In this document: piece after piece, positions 1-44,700 of the stretch | How the letters are laid out: each line of letters starts with the position of its first letter | Numbering within the stretch: position 1 is the first letter of the stretch | Origin: Zygnema cylindricum | Taxonomy: Eukaryota; Streptophyta; Zygnematophyceae; Zygnematales; Zygnemataceae | Assembly (NCBI GenBank): GCA_037447655.1 | Contig: JBBHKE010000125.1 | Span: 162,173-226,172 of the forward strand | Reading direction: 5' to 3' | Length of the DNA stretch: 64,000 nt | Program-made: the position numbers and the translations under genes | The notes under the pieces: generated by a model | Told to the model about the DNA's origin: nothing | Database searches by the model: none | What the model saw: the letters and a program-made list of their open reading frames with translations, nothing else

Positions 1-1072
1 GGTTACAGTTAGAGGTCGGTATTACCGAGAGTTATGAAACAGTGAAAATATCTACTGCGTTGGGCAATGACAGTGTAGATGTACTAAGCTACTTTTAGAC
101 TGTGAAAACGATGAAAGTTTGTCAAATTTCGTTTTCAACTTTTAAAAGTGCTAAGGGCCTAGTTTTGAGAGGCTTGTCTGTTGCCTCCTCTCAAAACGAG
201 TTATCTTAAGCGGCGGTAAGATCAGCATGTACCTAAGAGGGTGGTTTGCTGTTGCGGTTTGTGTGGTGTCTTTTTGCCGCAGCGGCTTGCCATGTTGGCA
301 TGGCAATAGTTGTACCGGACAAGGTACAACGTGAAACGACCTGACGGTGAGTAGAGGTTCGACAGAGATTTCGTAAATAGTTGGCCGTAGTCATGGATTC
401 TCCCCAAAAAATAGTTGGCAGTCCAGCAAAGTGCAACATGGAACAGGCCATGTTGATAACGGTACGGTTGTACCGTTCGGCGACGCCGTTTTTCTGTGGT
501 GTGTTTGGCGTTGTCGTTTGGTGGGAGAATCCATGTACGACTAGAATGGCGGCGAATTCTATTGAGCAAAACTCTCCTCCGTTGTCTGTTCGGAGAGTTT
601 TGATCCGGGAATCGTGAAAATTTTCAACTTTTGCTTTAAACTGTTTGAAAGTAGCAAAAGTGTCAGATTTTCATCGAATCATGTAGATGTGACAGTAACG
701 GGTTGCGTCATCTATAAAAGTGACAAAGTATTGAGAGCCATTATGGCTGGAGATTGACATTGGCCCTCATAGGTCAGAGTGGATAAGTTCAAGTGGTCCG
801 TTGGATTTGGATGTACTTGAAAGAAACGACGGTCGAGGGAATTTTCCTTCAACGCAACCGGAGCAAAAGGGTAATTTTTGATTAGCCAAAGGTTTGAGTC
901 CTGTTACAAGACCTTTGGTTAAATCATGAAGGCTGGAGCCGGATACGTGGCCAAATCGAAGGTGCCATTTGGAAAAGGTAACATTTGATGATGTTATTGC
1001 CATGTTGGGTGATCTAATGGGCGAAAATAGACGATAGTATGTAGATGTCTCCTTGTTTAACGCCGAATCCAA
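1..1072 (-). pseudogene. Ty1/copia integrase fragment, decayed
   Basis: Read on the minus strand, this is the GAG-pre-integrase domain followed by the integrase core of a Ty1/copia retrotransposon. The N-terminal part has the zinc-binding arrangement WHLRFGH...FCSGC (about 1000-870). The core shows the catalytic triad in order: Asp in FIDDATRYC, Asp in RTDNGGEF and Glu in NGVAERYNRT. It then continues through a typical WGESMTTANYLRN block near 240-300. A TGA at 671-673 interrupts the core, and the frame is lost after about 233, so the copy is dead. It is truncated by the window edge; the reverse transcriptase part would lie to the left. The domain call is seen directly; loss of function is inferred from the breaks. 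Confidence 0.85.
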
Positions 1073-5112: not shown

Positions 5113-5948
5113 CTCTAATAACAACACACGGTAGCTTCAGGGTTTTATTTTATGTAGAATATTTGGGTTTTACTTTGTTTCATTTTGTTTTCTTTTTTAT
5201 TTTGATTCCTCTTTCGTTTTTTTTGTATGTTTGTGTTTTTTCTTTTTTGGATTGTCTCATTTTGTTTTCGTTTTTATGTTTATTCATATGTTAGTATTTT
5301 TTTTGGGTTTTTTTTTTTTTTGACGTTACCTAGTCCTTTGTCCAACCGGAAACTCTTAGTTTTTTTTTTTTTTTACAGCTTTGATTATTTGTTTACTTTC
5401 CCTCTCACTAGCTTTGTTTATTTGTTTACTTTCCCTCTTACTAGCTCTTGCAGGGAAAGGGGGAGAGGGGGAGAAGGGGAGAGGGGGAGAGGGAGAGGAG
5501 AGGGGGAGGGGGAGGAGAGAAGGGGGAGAGGGAGGGCAAGGGGAGAGTTCGGTTTTATTTTGTCTGGTTGTTTTCTTTTTTTCAATTTTGATTTCTTGTT
5601 TTGCTTTTTTCATTTTTTTTTTAGATCTTTACACAATTTTGTAATGATAGGGAGGGAGGGACAAATGAAAACACTACATAAAACAAAACATTGCAACATA
5701 AAAACACTGCAAAATTTCGAATAAAAAATACAGCTTTCCGTTTAAAAGACAATGATCCTTGCCATAGTGAACATGGAGAAAAAAACGTTTTTTCTTTCCC
5801 TTACCACTGAATAATTTGTTCACTCTGTTTTTATTCGTCAATTTTGAGACTTTCAAGCCAAAAGCCTCCAAATTGCTTTTTTTTCAGTGACTCCAAACCT
5901 CCATTCTGTAAATAGATTTTACCAAAAAATGAAAGAAAAAAACAGTTG
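5113..5948. other. T-rich and GA-rich low-complexity spacer
   Basis: There are T-rich tracts at 5200-5400, a GGGGAGAGG purine block at 5455-5548, and A/T-rich sequence to 5948. The open frames across it consist of low-complexity residues. I see no gene. Confidence 0.6.
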
Positions 5949-5950
5949 TT

Positions 5951-5965
5951 CTCTCTCTCTTTCTC

Positions 5966-6056
<91 letters not shown>

Positions 6057-6206
6057 CTCTCCTTCTCTCCCCCTCTCTCCCTCTCTCTCCTTCTCTCTCC
6101 CTCTCCCCCTCTCTCCCTCCCTCCCTCCTTTCCTCCTTCCCTCCCTCCCGCCCTCCACCTCCCTCCCTCCCTCCCTCCCTCCCTCCCTCCCTCCATCCCT
6201 CCCTGC
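5951..6206 (+). repeat. (CT)n microsatellite grading into CCCTCC repeats
   Basis: A nearly pure CT dinucleotide run covers about 5971-6053 and passes into CCCT/CCTCC repeats to about 6206. It is a homopurine/homopyrimidine mirror-symmetric tract of the kind able to form triplex DNA. The long Ser/Leu and Arg/Glu open frames across it are artefacts. Confidence 0.95.
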
Positions 6207-7309
6207 CTCCTCCCCATGCGCGTAACGCAGTGTGCCTATGTAACTATTGAAAAGGGTAATGCGTAGTTCACTAGTTCTTTTAGACTCATGAGAAAGAAAG
6301 AGAGAGAGTACGAGAGAAGCAAACCATGGCTGCCTCTTTGGTCGCCAAGGCGGCAGTATGAGGCAAAAGACAAAAGTTGAACATGTAAACAAAATGGTGG
6401 ACTTTCCTATGTTTAATCCTATGTCCTACACAGTCTAGAATAGCTTGTCCTACGCAGTCTAGAATAGCTTGCCGCCCTATCCGCTATGTCGTTGTAAAAT
6501 CCTTGCAACTAGTTTGTATGATAAGTTAATAAACAAAAATTACGCGGCTAATTCATTTAACAACACAAACGAACAAAAAGTCACATGTTAATCGATGGTG
6601 CGTGTTTACATTACAACATCATCCATAGACGCGAAGCATCATGCATGGACGCCAATCTTGACCCTGTAAATAATTCTAATCGGACGGCCATCGCTGCAGC
6701 CGCAAACCCGAAATGAACCTTTTGGCGGCTTTTGGAGGTAGCATCACAAAGAGCCATGCTGCGGGATATAAATGGACACCGGAAAAGACGAGAGGAGGAA
6801 CCATGACTGCCAATCTGACAGATGTCATCGAGAAGGTCGTTCAGTACAATGACCGTTTAATTCGTTCATTGGCAGCTGTACCTTTCCATACTATACAATC
6901 GTGTGATTGGTCTAGGGTTTTAATTGTGGGCAGGTGTGAGTAGGTTGACTAGGATTTAGGCATTTTTGAGCCGCCTCTCTTTGTGCGAGCTTTTGTATAT
7001 ATAGGTCACCTTTGACCATTAATGACTTAATGCTCAAGGAGCAAATTCATTGATTTTTTTTGCGTTCGGCTCATGGGAGTCAAGCTCTCACAGTGGTGAG
7101 GGTGGTCAAAATATTTGTGTGCCAAGGTGACACTTATTCAGTGGGAAAGTCAAAGGTGAAAATATTATCCTAGAAGCTTAATGCAAACTCGATATTATGT
7201 GGGCAAATGGAAGCCACGAAGTTTCAATAACCAAAACTTTGAAATGCGACTTTGGATTTTAGAGAAGATTCTCATTACTAATTTGCATAGCGTTCAAATG
7301 TGCAAATAT
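6207..7309. other. Spacer with short tandem duplication; no supported gene
   Basis: An exact-but-one 24-bp unit containing CAGTCTAGAATAGCTT is duplicated at 6423-6446 and 6447-6470. A 76-codon open frame at 6713-6943 (plus) matches no family I recognise, and I do not call it. A TATATATAGG at about 6995 followed by a short leader-like stretch resembles a promoter or LTR remnant, but nothing downstream supports it. Confidence 0.4.
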
Positions 7310-7960
7310 TAAATTGCTACTTGTATTGTGACGGTTGTTGACATGGTTAAAACTTGTGACGGTTGTAGAAAACTACGAATCTTTAAACAATTGGTGACGT
7401 CTACAAAAACAGCGGACTGTTGTACACGTCGATTTTTTTGTGACATTATAGATGTTTAGAGTTTTGTGACTTTGTGAAATCATGCTCACTTGTCACGTCA
7501 TTAATATCATTTTTTTTCACCATGACATCCGGAATTCTTTCTTTTTTCTTATACCACTATATATGCCATCAAAATACAACTAAAGGTTTTCAAAAAAAAA
7601 AAATCTTTCACTTCATACCAGTATTATCGTATTTCATTTCAAGAAAAGAAATGATGGAGCAACAGAGTGAGAGGGAGGGGGAGAGACGAGGAAGTCGGAG
7701 ACTTTTCAAGAGGACCTATGAATGAAAGTGGAGGTCTGAGACCCCTTCAATTTTTTTTTTCGAACATGCTCGTCATTTTTCTACGTACATGCGTGTGACG
7801 AGCAAGGAAAAAAATAGCATGTACCGTCCCTCGTGCAAAAAATTTCAAAAACGTATGACGCTTGTGAATTGCTTTTCCTATTCGTCGATCAACTATTGAT
7901 TTTAATAAATCAACTCGCGAGTAGAATTCAACAGAAGTTTGAATATGAGCTGGCATGACG
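7310..7960 (-). repeat. Dispersed repeat family R2, minus-strand copy
   Basis: The reverse complement of this stretch is recognisably the same sequence as 33400-33960 and 55640-55990. Shared landmarks are the CACGAGGG block, the CATTCATAGGTCC/CATTCATGGGTCC block, a CT-rich run, and a GTGACGTC...CACAAGTGAG block. It has no coding potential. The long terminal structure is unclear, so I give no transposon class. Confidence 0.65.
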
Positions 7961-7985: not shown

Positions 7986-9177
7986 TGTTGGTTTTTGGGA
8001 AGATTCAGTTTCGTACATGCGTGCGCGTGCATATATATTTACTTGATATACTGTGGAGATTTGAAGAGATTTGTGGATCGGGGGAGTAAGTGTGCGAGTG
8101 AAATTAAATGGACATAAAGAACAAACTGAGTGGCGCGGAATGCGCTAGGAAATGGACGGTGGATCGCGAATCGATCCGACGATGATTTGAAATATTCGAA
8201 GTATTTGAAAATGTACGCCAGCCGTGCAAATCAAAATGCGACAGGTGTACTTTAGTTTTGACCGGCGGAATTTATGACATAGTACGTGGTCTCGGTACGG
8301 AAATAAATTCGGCTGTACGATATTGTTGACAAGTGGAATTTTTGTTTGGTTTTTGTGACCACGCGGCACGACATCGACGGTGCCAAATAAGAGTTACGGA
8401 CGGCGGACAAAGGCCGCCAATATTTCCAAGGGATCATATTGTTTGATGACGTGTAAATTAGGTGGACCGTACATATACGATGTCGGTTCACTACGTGGAT
8501 TTATCTACGAGTGACTAAGCAAGTTGTCGCTTATGACGCGTATTTTGCGGACGCGTCGGTGTAAATATTTGAAGAAACATTTTCTTGTCGTATATGTATT
8601 AATTTTTGTTATTTAAGTGATCAATTAGGGTTTTCGACAGTTTAATTTGTGTGTCTTTATTTGTCGTTTATGCAGACAAGTGTACGCTTACGATTGCTAG
8701 ACTTTCAGGTGTACGCTTACGATTAATTGATTCTTAGTATGTTATTATGGATATATATAGGAATGAGCTTGGTTAGGAATTAATCATCAATGCTGGTAAG
8801 TAAAGTGGGGACCGAAGATGTAGACTTTTAGGGTTATCGATTAGGTCATGCACTTTGAATAATATAATGATTATTTAATTATACTTTTGTTTATATGAAA
8901 TGCATTTGTCTTTATTATTTATTTATGTTATTTTATATATGTTTGATATGCATTGTTTATGCATTTGTCCTAGGGTTTGTTTATGTCAATTATTCCATCA
9001 AACCTTAGATGTTGTCATAGGGTTTATTTATGTTGATTATTCCATGAAATCCTAAATGTTGTTGTATGTTAAATGGAGGATGCATTTCAAATGATTGTTC
9101 GTCGACCTATTTTTGCTTAGCTTTTTGCATGATAGTTTGGGTGGCTTCTGCGGTCTATTTTAGACCAAAGAACAACA
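7986..9177 (+). repeat. 5' LTR of the non-autonomous element
   Basis: It carries a TATATATAGGAATGAGC block near 8751 that is conserved in all three related LTRs in the window, the most likely promoter. Just upstream is a duplicated GTGTACGCTTACGATT motif (about 8680 and 8710). Relative to the 3' LTR it lacks 20 bp after about 8608. The older solo LTR at 3587 retains that segment, so this is a deletion here and not an insertion there. Confidence 0.9.
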
Positions 9178-10064: not shown

Positions 10065-11276
10065 TGTTGGTTTTTAGGAAGATTCAGTTTCGTACATGCG
10101 TGCGCGTGCATATATATTTACTTGATATACTGTGGAGATTTGAAGAGATTTGTGGATCGGGGGAGTAAGTGTGCGAGTGAAATTAAATGGACATAAAGAA
10201 CAAACTGAGTGGCGCGGAATGCGCTAGGAAATGGACGGTGGATCGCGAATCGATCCGACGATGATTTGAAATATTCGAAGTATTTGAAAATGTACGCCAG
10301 CCGTACAAATCAAAATGCGACAGGTGTACTTTAGTTTTGACCGGCGGAATTTATGACATAGTACGTGGTCTCGGTACGGAAATAAATTCGGCTGTACGAT
10401 ATTGTTGACAAGTGGAATTTTTGTTTGGTTTTTGTGACCAAGCGGCACGACATCGACGGTGCCAAATAAGAGTTACAGACGGCGGACAAAGGCCGCCGAT
10501 ATTTCCAAGGGATCATATTGTTTGATGACGTGTTAATTAGGTGGACCGTACATATACGATGTCGGTTCACTACGTGGATTTATCTACGAGTGACTAAGCA
10601 AGTTGTCGCTTATGACGCGTATTTTGCGGACGCGTCGGTGTAAATATTTGAAGAAACATTTTCTTGTCGTATATGTATTAATAAATTAGTATTGATTATG
10701 ACATTTGTTATTTAAGTGATCAATTAGGGTTTTCGACAGTTTAATTTGTGTGTCTTTATTTGTCGTTTATGCAGACAAGTGTACGCTTACGATTGCTAGA
10801 CTTTCAGGTGTACGCTTACGATTAATTGATTCTTAGTATGTTATTATGGATATATATAGGAATGAGCTTGGTTAGGAATTAATCATCAATGCTGGTTAGT
10901 AAAGTGGGGATCGAAGATGTAGACTTTTAGGGTTATCGATTAGGTCATGCACTTTGAATAATATAATGATTATTTAATTATACTTTTGTTTATATGAAAT
11001 GCATTTGTCTTTATTATTTATTTATGTTATTTTATATATGTTTGATATGCATTGTTTATGCATTTTTCCTAGGGTTTGTTTATGTCAATTATTCCATCAA
11101 ACCTTAGATGTTGTCATAGGGTTTATTTATGTTGATTATTCCATGAAATCCTAAATGTTGTTGTATGTTAAATGGAGGATGCATTTCAAATGATTGTTCG
11201 TCGACCTATTTTTGCTTAGCTTTTTGCATGATAGTTTGGGTGGCTTCTGCGGTCTATTTTAGACCAAAGAACAACA
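10065..11276 (+). repeat. 3' LTR of the non-autonomous element
   Basis: This is a direct copy of the 5' LTR, preceded by the purine tract CGGGGGAG at about 10057-10064. It ends ACAACA at 11276 and is followed by the AATAA target duplication. Confidence 0.9.
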
Positions 11277-32480: not shown

Positions 32481-32696
32481 CATAATTAAATTTCATTAAA
32501 CGGGCTACAAGAGGAATTTCATATGAAGTATCACATCAACTGGTCTTAATCCATCATGTAAGTTTATATGAACCTGATCTCATGCCTATCCTATTTTTCT
32601 AATCACGACTCATGTGGTACATACATTCTTTCATGTTTTTTTTTTTTTTCTTGTCATTTTTTGACAATGCATGGATCTAAACAACGGTTTGTGCAG
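32481..32696. other. Presumed intron upstream of the PAN exon
   Basis: A/T-rich sequence with a T-tract at about 32637-32649, ending GTTTGTGCAG. This is a good acceptor context for the following exon. Confidence 0.4.
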
Positions 32697-32841
32697 CGTG
32701 CAACGGCATAAATTACTCTTACACCACTTATGCCAATGTTGACGCCCCGGGAATTGACATAGCAAGTTATACAGCGACCTCTGCTTCGGAGTGTCAACAG
32801 AAGTGCACACAGGAATGCGCTTGCACAGGATTTAGGAGTCT
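32697..32841 (+). CDS. PAN/Apple-like domain exon, cut by an assembly gap
   Basis: After a GTGCAG acceptor the frame reads CNGINYSYTTYANVDAPG, then DIASYTATSASECQQKC and TQECACTGFRS before the Ns. The spacing of cysteines with ECQ..C...C.C.GF and a preceding D-x-x-G-x-D is the usual pattern of PAN/Apple domains, which bind protein or carbohydrate in extracellular proteins, including plant lectin-type receptors. The exon starts in phase 2 (CG then TGC). No other part of the gene is recognisable: the left side is separated by simple repeats and the right side is lost at the gap. The full protein type cannot be named. Confidence 0.6.
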
Positions 32842-32851
32842 NNNNNNNNNN
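32842..32851. other. Assembly gap of 10 N
   Basis: Ten undetermined bases of arbitrary length. The sequence on the right of the gap is anomalous (see the mirror repeat), so the join may be wrong. Confidence 0.99.
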
Positions 32852-33455
32852 GGAGCAGGTTTTAAAAATGTTTAGCACACCGCGCACGCACCAAGCAAAA
32901 AGTAAGAGACAAACCCGCCATGAACTTGATTTTAGTGGGGGAGCTCCACTAAAACCTACTTCAAAAAAAAACCCGACCTAAGAGAACGGGCCCCCAGCTT
33001 TACCCCTTTTGCGGTTTTACTCAAGTGTACTGCTGTATGTGCGGCATGTAGGTTTTCATACTTAACTGCAAGTGAGATGAAACCATTTTTTTACGCTTAG
33101 AGGTACCAGTACCATTTAGGGTACTTCCCCGTGTATTAAAGTATCTACTTTTCTCTGTCTTTTTGCCCTTAAATTGAGGGAACTTTGACAAAAACTTTAA
33201 CCGTACGAGAAAATCATTTTTACCAAAGTAGAGTGAACGTCAATTCATACTTTTGGATGTACGGCGTGTATGTCGTCATGTGAACTCATTTTGGCGTTTT
33301 CCCCATTTCGACCCCCGGGCAAGAGAATCCAGCCCAAAAAAAAACTTCATCCAAAATCACCTCGAGGGGGTGATTTTAGTTCAAGTACCGCCCAAACAGA
33401 GAATGAAAAACGAACCACGCACGCGCCACACGATTTGTAAAAATTTTGGACGAGG
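32852..33455. repeat. Perfect 239-bp mirror repeat (reversed, not complemented)
   Basis: Bases 32852-33090 read backwards are identical to 33217-33455 on the same strand, base for base in every segment I compared, with a 126-bp spacer (33091-33216). This is not an inverted repeat: no complementation is involved. The right arm is the natural orientation, because 33410-33490 continues into sequence homologous to the reverse complement of 7771-7860 and contains the GTACGG words typical of the window. The left arm shows GGCATG instead. The left arm therefore looks like a string-reversed copy placed beside the gap. Confidence 0.97.
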
Positions 33456-34480
33456 GAGAGTCCTCGCTATTTTTATCTGTGCCCGTCACGCGCTATGTAC
33501 GGAAAACAAATTGCAGGGGTCTCGGACTTCCACTTGCATTCATGGGTCCCTTGCAAAATATTTTTCAGTCATCGCCTCTCCTCATTCCCTCTCACACTAT
33601 CGCTTGTATCTCACACTTTTTAGAATGAGACACGACAATATTGGTATAAAATGAAAGATCTTTGAAAAAAATATTTTTCTATTTTTTTTAGGTTTTTATT
33701 TAATGGCAATTCGAATAAGAAACGCAGAAAAAGTAAAATCGGGAAAAAATTTCTTGAATCCGTGACGTCGACGTTGTCACAAGTGAGAGTGATGTCACAA
33801 TGTCACCAAACCCTAAACATCTTCAATTTCACAAAAATCTAGAAGTCTACAACTGTCGATGTTTTTGTTGGCGACACTAATCGTCCGAAGCTTCGTAGTC
33901 GGCTTCAATTGTCACAAAGTTGTATCTACGTCTACAACCGTCACATGTTAAAGGTTCGATTTCATTTTCGCACATTGGGAGGCTCTTCAAAGTAGTACGG
34001 AGAATCTTCACTGGTCCAAAATACTTAATCAAAGTACCGATTACATGGGGACGTACCCTTAGTCATATACATAAATGTTCACTTCCGCTAATACAGGAGA
34101 TATTTAAATAGTGTATACGATCATTCCGTACATTAACTGTTTGTTTTATCATAAAAGTACATAACACGTGTGAGATAACGACGTCAACACGGGAAAGCGC
34201 ACTCAAATTTGGTTCATCTCAATTCTTCTTAATTTGAATTGAATTTAAACCCTAAAAAAATTAGAAAAAACGTGAACCTGTTCTCACATGTTCAATAAAT
34301 GTATAGATAAACAAGTGTTACGCATGTGAACTACATTGTGTGAATTTATAAGTGTTGATGTTATTTTCTCCACTTAAAAAATCTTTTATCCGTGCACACT
34401 TGTCCAATTTTTTAACAGAGATCGTCAATCGCAAGGTGGGAAATTGCAAACCGGCAACTTAATGATCTCACGAGTGTGCA
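33400..34480 (+). repeat. Dispersed repeat family R2, plus-strand copy
   Basis: It shares landmarks with 7310-7960 (inverted) and 55640-56400 (direct): CATTCATGGGTCC, a CT-rich stretch, GACGTCGACG..TCACAAGTGAG, CTAAACATCTTCAA, and further on CCTGTTCTCACATGTTCAA. Non-coding. It begins within the right arm of the mirror repeat. Confidence 0.65.
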
Positions 34481-41703: not shown

Positions 41704-44700
41704 TTATGATGGAGATTGTGATTGTAAATCTACCACCACCACACTAATATTGTCGGTACTCCCTCGAGCCAATGCAACTTTTGTGAGTAAAGCCGCGGCC
41801 ATGGAACAAGGACTTCCTTGCCCATCATCTCCTTGCTTTTTCCTCCTTTTTTCTAAGCATTGACCAACAATTTTACAAGCAATTTCGTTTGAAAGCACGT
41901 CCCATAGTCCATCACTCGCAAGTATTATAAAATCGTCTTGTTCTGCCCGCATAGTGTATGTCATTTCAGGCTTCGAAATCACATATGGTTTAAGAACACG
42001 ATCGCCTGTAAAAGTCCAAGAAAGGAATTGACTTTCCCATGTCAATCGCTTGTTTTTAAGTCTTAAAAGGATAAGATTTCCACTTTCAACAAGATTTATG
42101 TTACAAAATGTTTTGACTTTAAAGTCCCAAACACAGCATATTAAATCCTATCAAAAAGTACTAAAGTACGCTGTCAAACTACTGAAATTACTTTGACTTT
42201 GTGAAACAAAAAGAAAGCTTACGCTTCCACATTCCAACTCAAATTCTTTTCATGAAAGGTACGCCATACGGAAACACATGAAACATTTTGGAAACATAAA
42301 GAAACACAAAGAATCACATGATTTCAGCCTTGAAGTCCCACATTCTATGGTCAATTTCATCCATTAAAGTTAAAAGCCTCACCTATAGCTCGTGACATCG
42401 CCAATACTCCGAGAACGCGAAAACCTTCTTGATATATCACTTTTCCTCCCGCCGCCTCCACCCGACGCATTTCATCGGGACGTTGAGGCTATATTAAAAA
42501 ATTTACAAAAAAAAACACAATAAGAAACTAAGAAACTTCCTCCGTCTCTCTCTAATCGACTGGATAAACAGTCACTTCCTCCTCCTAATCCTCTGTATAA
42601 ACAAATCTCCATGTATATGCAGTACTACAGTTTCTTGATTGTAAAAAACTTCCAAGGGTAAAATGTCACACTGACCTTATGATCCGAAGAAAGCGGTAAC
42701 ACCATCCCTCCTCGACATAGAACCGCACGAGAATCTCCGCAGTTTGCGACAAATATTTGATCTTGACTCACAACTGCCACAACTGCCGTAGAACCGACAA
42801 ACTCCGGAGCAATGGCTTCATGTTTGCAACAATTTCCTTTCCCTCTTCCACAGTTCCCGGGAAATAAACAAAACCCATTTATTTCTGCGTCGATTTTAAA
42901 AAACGTCGATTCGAGAGCCCGACCCATACAATTTCTTAACTCTTCTGCAGTTCCCTCGCAAGCTATTGAGCTTCTTTTCAGTTCTTCTGATAAAGTGATG
43001 TGGAGTTTCTCTGCACAGTGTTTTGCAGCCTGAGGAAGGAGAGAAAAATAAAGTAATAACAAAGGTCAAACAAGAGAGTGAGGGATGGGAGAAAGAAAAT
43101 TGTACATATAGATTCTCCCTTGTTGAAGTGTAATGTTGAATATAAATGTTTCGAAGAATGTTGATGTAAATGTTTTGGTGAATCTGCATTAAGATGACAT
43201 TTCATAAGATAAAAGATTTACAGGAAGGCAGGCAATGTTATAATACTAATTTATGATATGACCCACCAAAAAAGGATGTTTTACACCAATGGTTTGTAGC
43301 AATTCCTCCTCTAAAAGGAGAAATGAAACAAAAAAGAAAATAAAATAAAATCAGTAAAAATAAAAGATTTGTAGTCAGAAGCAAATTTACCCACCTAATC
43401 AGATACAAAACGCAAAACACAAAACAAAAAAGAAAGAAAACAAGATCAGTAAAAGTAAAAGAGTTCTAGTCAAAAGCAAAAATTCACCCACCTGCCAGCC
43501 TCCATGGCCATCATAAACTCCAAAAAAATGTAAAGGCTCATCTCCCGACTTCACTCCCACTCCCATATCTCCACTCCCCATAGAAACCTTCTCCTTTAGA
43601 CCCTTTTGTATCCCTTCTTTCGAAGCAACTTTCCATCCAGTAGTTGTAAAAGCCGGATGGGCCGCGACGGCATCTTCCATTTCTGGCCGTCTCCCACAAA
43701 CTGACACGTGTCCATGAGGAGGCCAGTTCCAATCCGGTAATCTTCCGGACAAAAACTCCGTTTTTTGTAACCGATTCGTTTCTGACGAACTTACACAAGC
43801 CGGAGCTTCCCGCGTCTCTCTCGAAAATCGAGGAGGAAGATCTTCGAAATCCCCTGGAGATCTCGTCCCACTGGGAGACGGATATTGACTCCTTGTACAG
43901 GATAGATCTGTAGCCGTTAAATCTCCACTGCAAGTTGATGTAGTAATTCCACTAGAAGCGCGACTCTCGTCGTCCTGTTTTTTTTGGGAAGTAAGGTTTT
44001 CTGTCCAAGATTTTGGTCTTGAAGGTTGGTGACTTTGCGAGGCTTGGCAACTTTGTGAGGATTGGTAACTTTGATTCCTAAAAGGTGAATTTTGAGAGGT
44101 TATTGTACAAGAAGTGAGAGAAGAGAGGTTAGGGAGTTGCAAAGAGCAGATTGGGTCCATAGAGCCCATAGTTGTCGCAGACATTGTCCGTAAACCGTAG
44201 TTTGGAGAAACGGCTTTCAGTGATTGGGATTTTTCCTCAGCCACAGGAGAAGTTCTTTTATTGCTGTTATTGGTAACGTTGTGTCCCATAAATAGTGTAT
44301 TTCCAGTCCACTTTAGCGCCCCCATGTTATTCGGTTTTATTGGTCTTCGAGGTTTTTTACTTTCTTGATTCTCGAACGATATTGTTGACCTGCACAAACA
44401 ATAAAAGAAAATAAATCTTTTTATCTTTTTCGATTTCTACACGATAGTCTTGCTAGGCTTATTGAAATAGCTTATAATCAGCATTATATTTACCAAACCA
44501 GATAAAGAAAAAATGAATGTGGCGTTTTTTTTTTTAAAAGAACCACCACTCAATAAAAGTCCCGAGATGAACTTATCCAACAAAAGAAAAAACATGATGG
44601 GCTTTAAAAAACCCAAGTCTTTGCCTCCAGCTTACAGGTCGACAGCTTCACAAATTCAGAAAATATTATTTTATCATTTTTTCAACCATGACTCATGACA

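Follow-up and report, generated by a model that had tools for sequence, protein, structure and literature searches.

The window, by which we mean the whole 64-kb stretch of Zygnema cylindricum DNA analysed here (C98:162173-226172), contains a perfect mirror repeat, M2, with arms of 239 bp, directly beside a run of ten N. With a probability of about 0.98 this repeat is an assembly artefact, in which an extension or gap-filling step would have attached a wrongly reversed, untrimmed piece at a gap-facing contig end. The mirror is most likely neither a feature of the genome nor a new kind of DNA structure. Reversed copies with this geometry stand at gap edges and recur. Thus the artefact is wider than the earlier note had seen: it is recurrent in the assembly, and a second instance, M1, is present in the same window. 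The elements of M2 are as follows.

10-N gap: 32842-32851 (C98:195014-195023), no strand; N run in the sequence
M2 left arm: 32852-33090, no strand; reversed, uncomplemented copy of 33217-33455, interpreted as sequence wrongly inserted where the contig ends at the gap
M2 spacer: 33091-33216, plus strand; 126 bp, read as the true contig start, with about 24 bp of flank followed by the start of the repeat element
M2 right arm: 33217-33455, plus strand; read as true genomic sequence within the repeat element
Interspersed repeat: 33115-34061, plus strand; about 947 bp, with imperfect terminal inverted repeats and copies elsewhere in the genome

A base-by-base comparison of the reversed left arm with the right arm gave 239 identical positions out of 239. 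The match stops sharply at both ends, with no extension on either side, and the left arm begins (32852) immediately past the gap. The earlier note had claimed a mismatch-free mirror with equal arms, the left one touching the 10-N gap, and this description is exact. Chance is ruled out as the origin of M2, as the longest mirrors in 20 order-2 Markov simulations of 64-kb sequence were 15-24 bp. When the window was scanned for exact matches (direct, reversed, complemented and recoded), long reversed matches were observed at two places only, and the next-longest reversed match in that scan, low-complexity words excluded, was 18 bp. The longest reversed match in the window outside the M1 and M2 regions is an (AT)n microsatellite of 89 bp that mirrors itself.

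On the other side of the gap, a short stretch (32695-32841) resembles, by eye, an exon of a PAN/apple-type domain. It is truncated by the 10-N gap, and a gene model across it would be broken there.

The right arm belongs to an interspersed repeat, which we tentatively label MITE-like. The genome (352,776,454 bases in 2,689 contigs) was searched with 33217-33900, and 40 scored forward matches, including the query itself, were obtained from 3,276 candidates; at least 39 other matches have identities of 89-92%. For all seven copies examined, colinearity with the window starts at 33115-33118, 24-27 bp into the spacer, and continues across the right arm in the direction of 34061. The first 24 bp of the spacer lie outside this homology test. 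The left arm as written aligns to none of the seven copies. Such homology points to the right arm as the true sequence, as the earlier note had proposed. One of the arguments of that note was that the continuation of the right arm is homologous to 7771-7860 on the opposite strand. An opposite-strand match does exist, but its interval is a different one: 33488-34012 corresponds to 7773-7261, with 70% matching positions. The other argument, based on GTACGG words, agrees with the counts. The right arm contains one such word and the left arm none, and in the rest of the window GTACGG and CCGTAC occur 38 and 39 times, against 6 and 14 for GGCATG and CATGCC.

Markov models of order 1-5 also favour the right arms over their reverses, by 4.0-13.8 log units for M2 and by 3.1-6.9 for M1. 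However, this test of direction is weak evidence, since 78-99% of window pieces are likewise positive. For the spacers it was mixed in M1 (-0.3 to 2.5) and went against the forward direction in M2 (-2.4 to 0.0). Homology was therefore used to decide which arm is true.

The second mirror of the window, M1, is larger and occupies the very start of the window. Its arms (1-348 and 416-763) are identical in 348 of 348 positions and are separated by 67 bp.

M1 left arm: 1-348, no strand; reversed, uncomplemented copy of 416-763, directly after an N run
M1 spacer: 349-415, minus strand; taken as the point where the true contig begins, with the Copia integrase frame of the right arm carrying on through it
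M1 right arm: 416-763, minus strand; read as true sequence, degenerate Copia integrase coding

The base that precedes the window, C98:162172, is the last of a run of 2,241 N, so that the left arm begins directly after this run. A long run of N may stand for withheld sequence instead of an assembly gap, which is unlikely for a run of ten; this run was taken as a gap because the M1 arm starts exactly at its end. An open minus-strand frame (350-670) spans the spacer and most of the right arm. Its match to the rve profile (integrase core) is weak, with E 2e-6 and 28.5 bits, below the curated cut-off of 32.6. The adjoining region 771-1126 matches the gag_pre-integrase profile with E 3.6e-11. The residues encoded in the spacer seem to resemble a continuation of the Copia integrase. 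No genome match was found for the reversed arm of M1 besides itself.

Some further features of the window were recorded. Region 41707-44436 on the minus strand likely contains protein phosphatase 2C exons: 41707-42147 matches the Pfam PP2C profile (E 7.1e-16), and 43402-44436 has no Pfam match and a PP2C-like motif seen by eye. Two similar direct copies of about 1.1 kb, sharing long exact stretches, are located about 2.1 kb apart at 8059-9176 and 10138-11275. A long CT/GA-rich simple-repeat region at 5922-6425 gives rise to low-complexity open frames.

Scaffold C98 was surveyed over positions 1-266172 of 305,397 and over its last 1,500 bases. The first of these regions contains six N runs. Its comparison with its own reversed string (low-complexity filter on, E <= 1e-3) produced three perfect long mirrors, each starting directly after an N run: M1, M2 and a third one, M3.

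M3 mirror: C98:239997-240235 and 240388-240626 (L027:3825-4454); 239-bp arms, 152-bp spacer, directly after a 10-N gap

The remaining two reversed matches in the 266 kb pair the M3 arm with forward sequence elsewhere, and in a complement-only comparison of the same region matches came from the M2 and M3 arms alone. No filtered match in the 266 kb, reversed or complement-only, lacked an arm of M1, M2 or M3. Forward homology in M3 begins at position 238 from the gap, which is the junction of arm and spacer, and the spacer is colinear with forward copies of the repeat.

Among the 12 edges of the six N runs, three have these long perfect arms and seven have no arm. At one of the other two (C98:146550 onwards) there is a doubtful, purine-rich arm of 52 bp with two mismatches and a spacer of 144 bp, and at the last a CT microsatellite mirrors itself over 36 bp. 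The first 1.5 kb of ten scaffolds were also scanned. One of these starts is all N. Among the nine readable ones, eight have no mirror and one (L043) has only a 19-bp self-palindromic match. No mirror was found in the last 1.5 kb of C98. As the scanned ends carry no mirrors, scaffold ends without a gap seem unaffected, although the sample is small.

The same anomaly was found elsewhere in the genome. A genome search with the reversed M2 arm (32852-33090) found seven places including M2 itself. Six touch a gap, and the match in the seventh, L033, ends 35 bases from one, inside a 520-bp mirror arm that does touch it. In all seven loci a mirror arm begins directly at the gap (offset 0), with a length of 239 bp in the window and of 87, 259, 221, 520, 300 and 281 bp in L030-L035, respectively. 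By contrast, gaps and mirrors are both absent from the roughly 3.7 kb examined for each of seven forward copies of the M2 repeat (L002-L008). This sample is not random, as it consists of the full-length matches with the best scores.

The reversed M3 arm, which comes from a different repeat, gave 20 genome matches including M3 itself. Twelve of the 19 others were examined, the remaining seven being the lowest-scoring, of 26-59 bp. In each of the 12 the distance from the match to a gap is at most 174 bases, and in 11 there is an offset-0 mirror arm (80, 116, 119, 277, 138, 261, 311, 129, 266, 222 and 200 bp). The exception, L049, is 14 bases from a gap and has no mirror partner within the 1 kb examined. 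In three cases both edges of one gap are affected: L032 (221 and 58 bp), L033 (37 and 520 bp) and L059 (67 and 222 bp).

In total, 21 loci with reversed sequence were collected. Each of them touches an N run or has one no more than 174 bases away, and 20 have an offset-0 mirror arm. They involve unrelated sequences: M1 lies in a Copia integrase region, M2 and six loci belong to the MITE-like family, and M3 and 12 loci to a different repeat family. Over these loci and the filtered 266-kb comparison, the anomaly was observed at gap edges and not elsewhere.

The order at these loci, from the gap inwards, is the reversed piece and then the contig. The mirrored part is 37-520 bp long, and the loop is 25-156 bp, or 215 bp for one 58-bp arm. 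Since the spacers of M2 and M3 are colinear with forward copies and that of M1 lies in an open frame, the break is placed at the junction of left arm and spacer. Placement of the pieces was judged by comparing the loci with forward and reversed repeat sequence. In 12 of the 21 loci (M1, M2, M3, L031, L032, L034, L035, L053, L056, L057, L058, L059) the piece seems to be wholly within the contig edge, as forward sequence sets in roughly where the arm ends, or because the spacer was judged to be forward. In five loci (L030, L033, L050, L052, L054) the reversed sequence continues past the mirrored part through the spacer, so that the piece extends across the contig edge and includes sequence that lies on its far side. 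As for the remaining loci, L049 has no mirrored part in the stretch examined, and L051, L055 and L060 are in neither class. The pieces sometimes differ from the contig, in 1 of 520 positions in L033, 1 of 261 in L055 and 4 of 119 in L052. In these three loci the piece therefore represents independent sequence data and is not a copy of the contig text.

These observations are best accounted for by the following scheme. A contig-extension or gap-filling step would add a piece, either a read or a local consensus, to a gap-facing contig end. The piece would be written reversed without being complemented or, equivalently, a piece from the opposite strand would be complemented without being reversed. 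Its overlap with the contig would be left untrimmed. A piece that duplicates sequence inside the contig edge would then read as reverse(R), spacer, R. The five edge-crossing pieces fit this model, as an intended extension would cross the edge. We infer software as the cause, and also which of its operations failed. As far as the sequence goes, this supports the earlier note, which had proposed that gap filling or file handling produced the left arm by string reversal. Three observations count against the model: arms are absent at seven of the 12 gap edges of C98, the pieces inside the contig edge (12 of 21 loci) would add no new sequence to the gap, and L049 is near a gap and yet has no mirror partner in 1 kb.

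One alternative, which we consider distinctly unlikely, is that foldback-chimeric reads, which carry inverted duplications arising in library preparation or amplification, became attached to contig ends and that complementation was lost in software. The arm-loop-arm geometry with its short loops would be explained, as would the 12 loci where the piece is inside the contig edge, which is what a foldback would produce. However, two faults would be needed where one suffices. Moreover, the reversed sequence from beyond the contig edge in L030, L033, L050, L052 and L054 is expected of a spanning piece and not of a foldback, and the spacer ends are complementary over 0-2 bases only in the ten edges tested. 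Even less probable is an error in decoding colour-space (SOLiD) data, in which decoding in the complement phase would have made a mirror repeat out of a true inverted repeat or a chimeric foldback. Indeed, a phase error may turn a reverse complement into a plain reverse. However, the A-C/G-T and A-G/C-T recodings would also be expected, and neither of them, in either direction, gave any match over the 266 kb of C98 (filtered, E <= 1e-3). In addition, five or more of the pieces are not foldbacks but stretches of the genome that extend across the contig edge.

It is exceedingly improbable that the mirrors are real DNA, that is, that a biological process copied 239 bp, 348 bp and other segments reversed and uncomplemented, with the assembly afterwards breaking there. 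In favour of this reading, the mirrors recur and their arms agree exactly or almost exactly. However, none of the 21 loci is farther than 174 bases from an N run, an offset-0 arm is present in 20, and the filtered comparison found none elsewhere in the 266 kb. Furthermore, a mirror has no k-mers in common with its partner on either strand, and thus a break of the assembly at its first base would be unexpected. A living process making string-reversed DNA copies in the genome of Z. cylindricum is likewise very improbable, because every example examined sits at or beside an N run. Such a process would need copying parallel to the template, and no polymerase is known to do this.

The artefact reading has parallels among known assembly errors. 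Misassemblies in gap closing or contig extension likewise place wrong sequence at gap-facing contig ends, here within repeats and with the overlap untrimmed. The gap-filling errors that are known involve incorrect or duplicated sequence whose strand orientation is still valid, whereas here the string is reversed without being complemented. Among the open-licence papers listed in literature searches, no title or beginning of an abstract describes strings at assembly gaps that are reversed but not complemented. Among known structures, inverted repeats and foldback chimeras have the same arm-spacer-arm geometry. However, the M2 arms are plain reverses and not reverse complements, and thus an inverted repeat was rejected; arms of this kind, as written, should not form antiparallel pairs with each other. 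H-DNA, described as forming at homopurine-homopyrimidine mirror repeats (PMC13404959), also involves two arms that are mirror-symmetric around a spacer. This identity was rejected too, since the M1 and M2 arms are 52-53% purine and contain no pure purine or pyrimidine run longer than nine bases.

Three long arms per 266 kb would correspond to some thousands in the 353 Mb, a rough figure that comes from one scaffold, the one where the finding arose. Reversed strings escape ordinary repeat and strand checks, because neither strand matches the source. They may be annotated as unique DNA or as spurious genes, and they may mislead surveys of mirror repeats or H-DNA. Such arms become apparent at once when the sequence next to a gap edge is reversed and compared with that edge. 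As biology, the mirrors of Z. cylindricum are most likely nothing; they matter for the quality control of its assembly.
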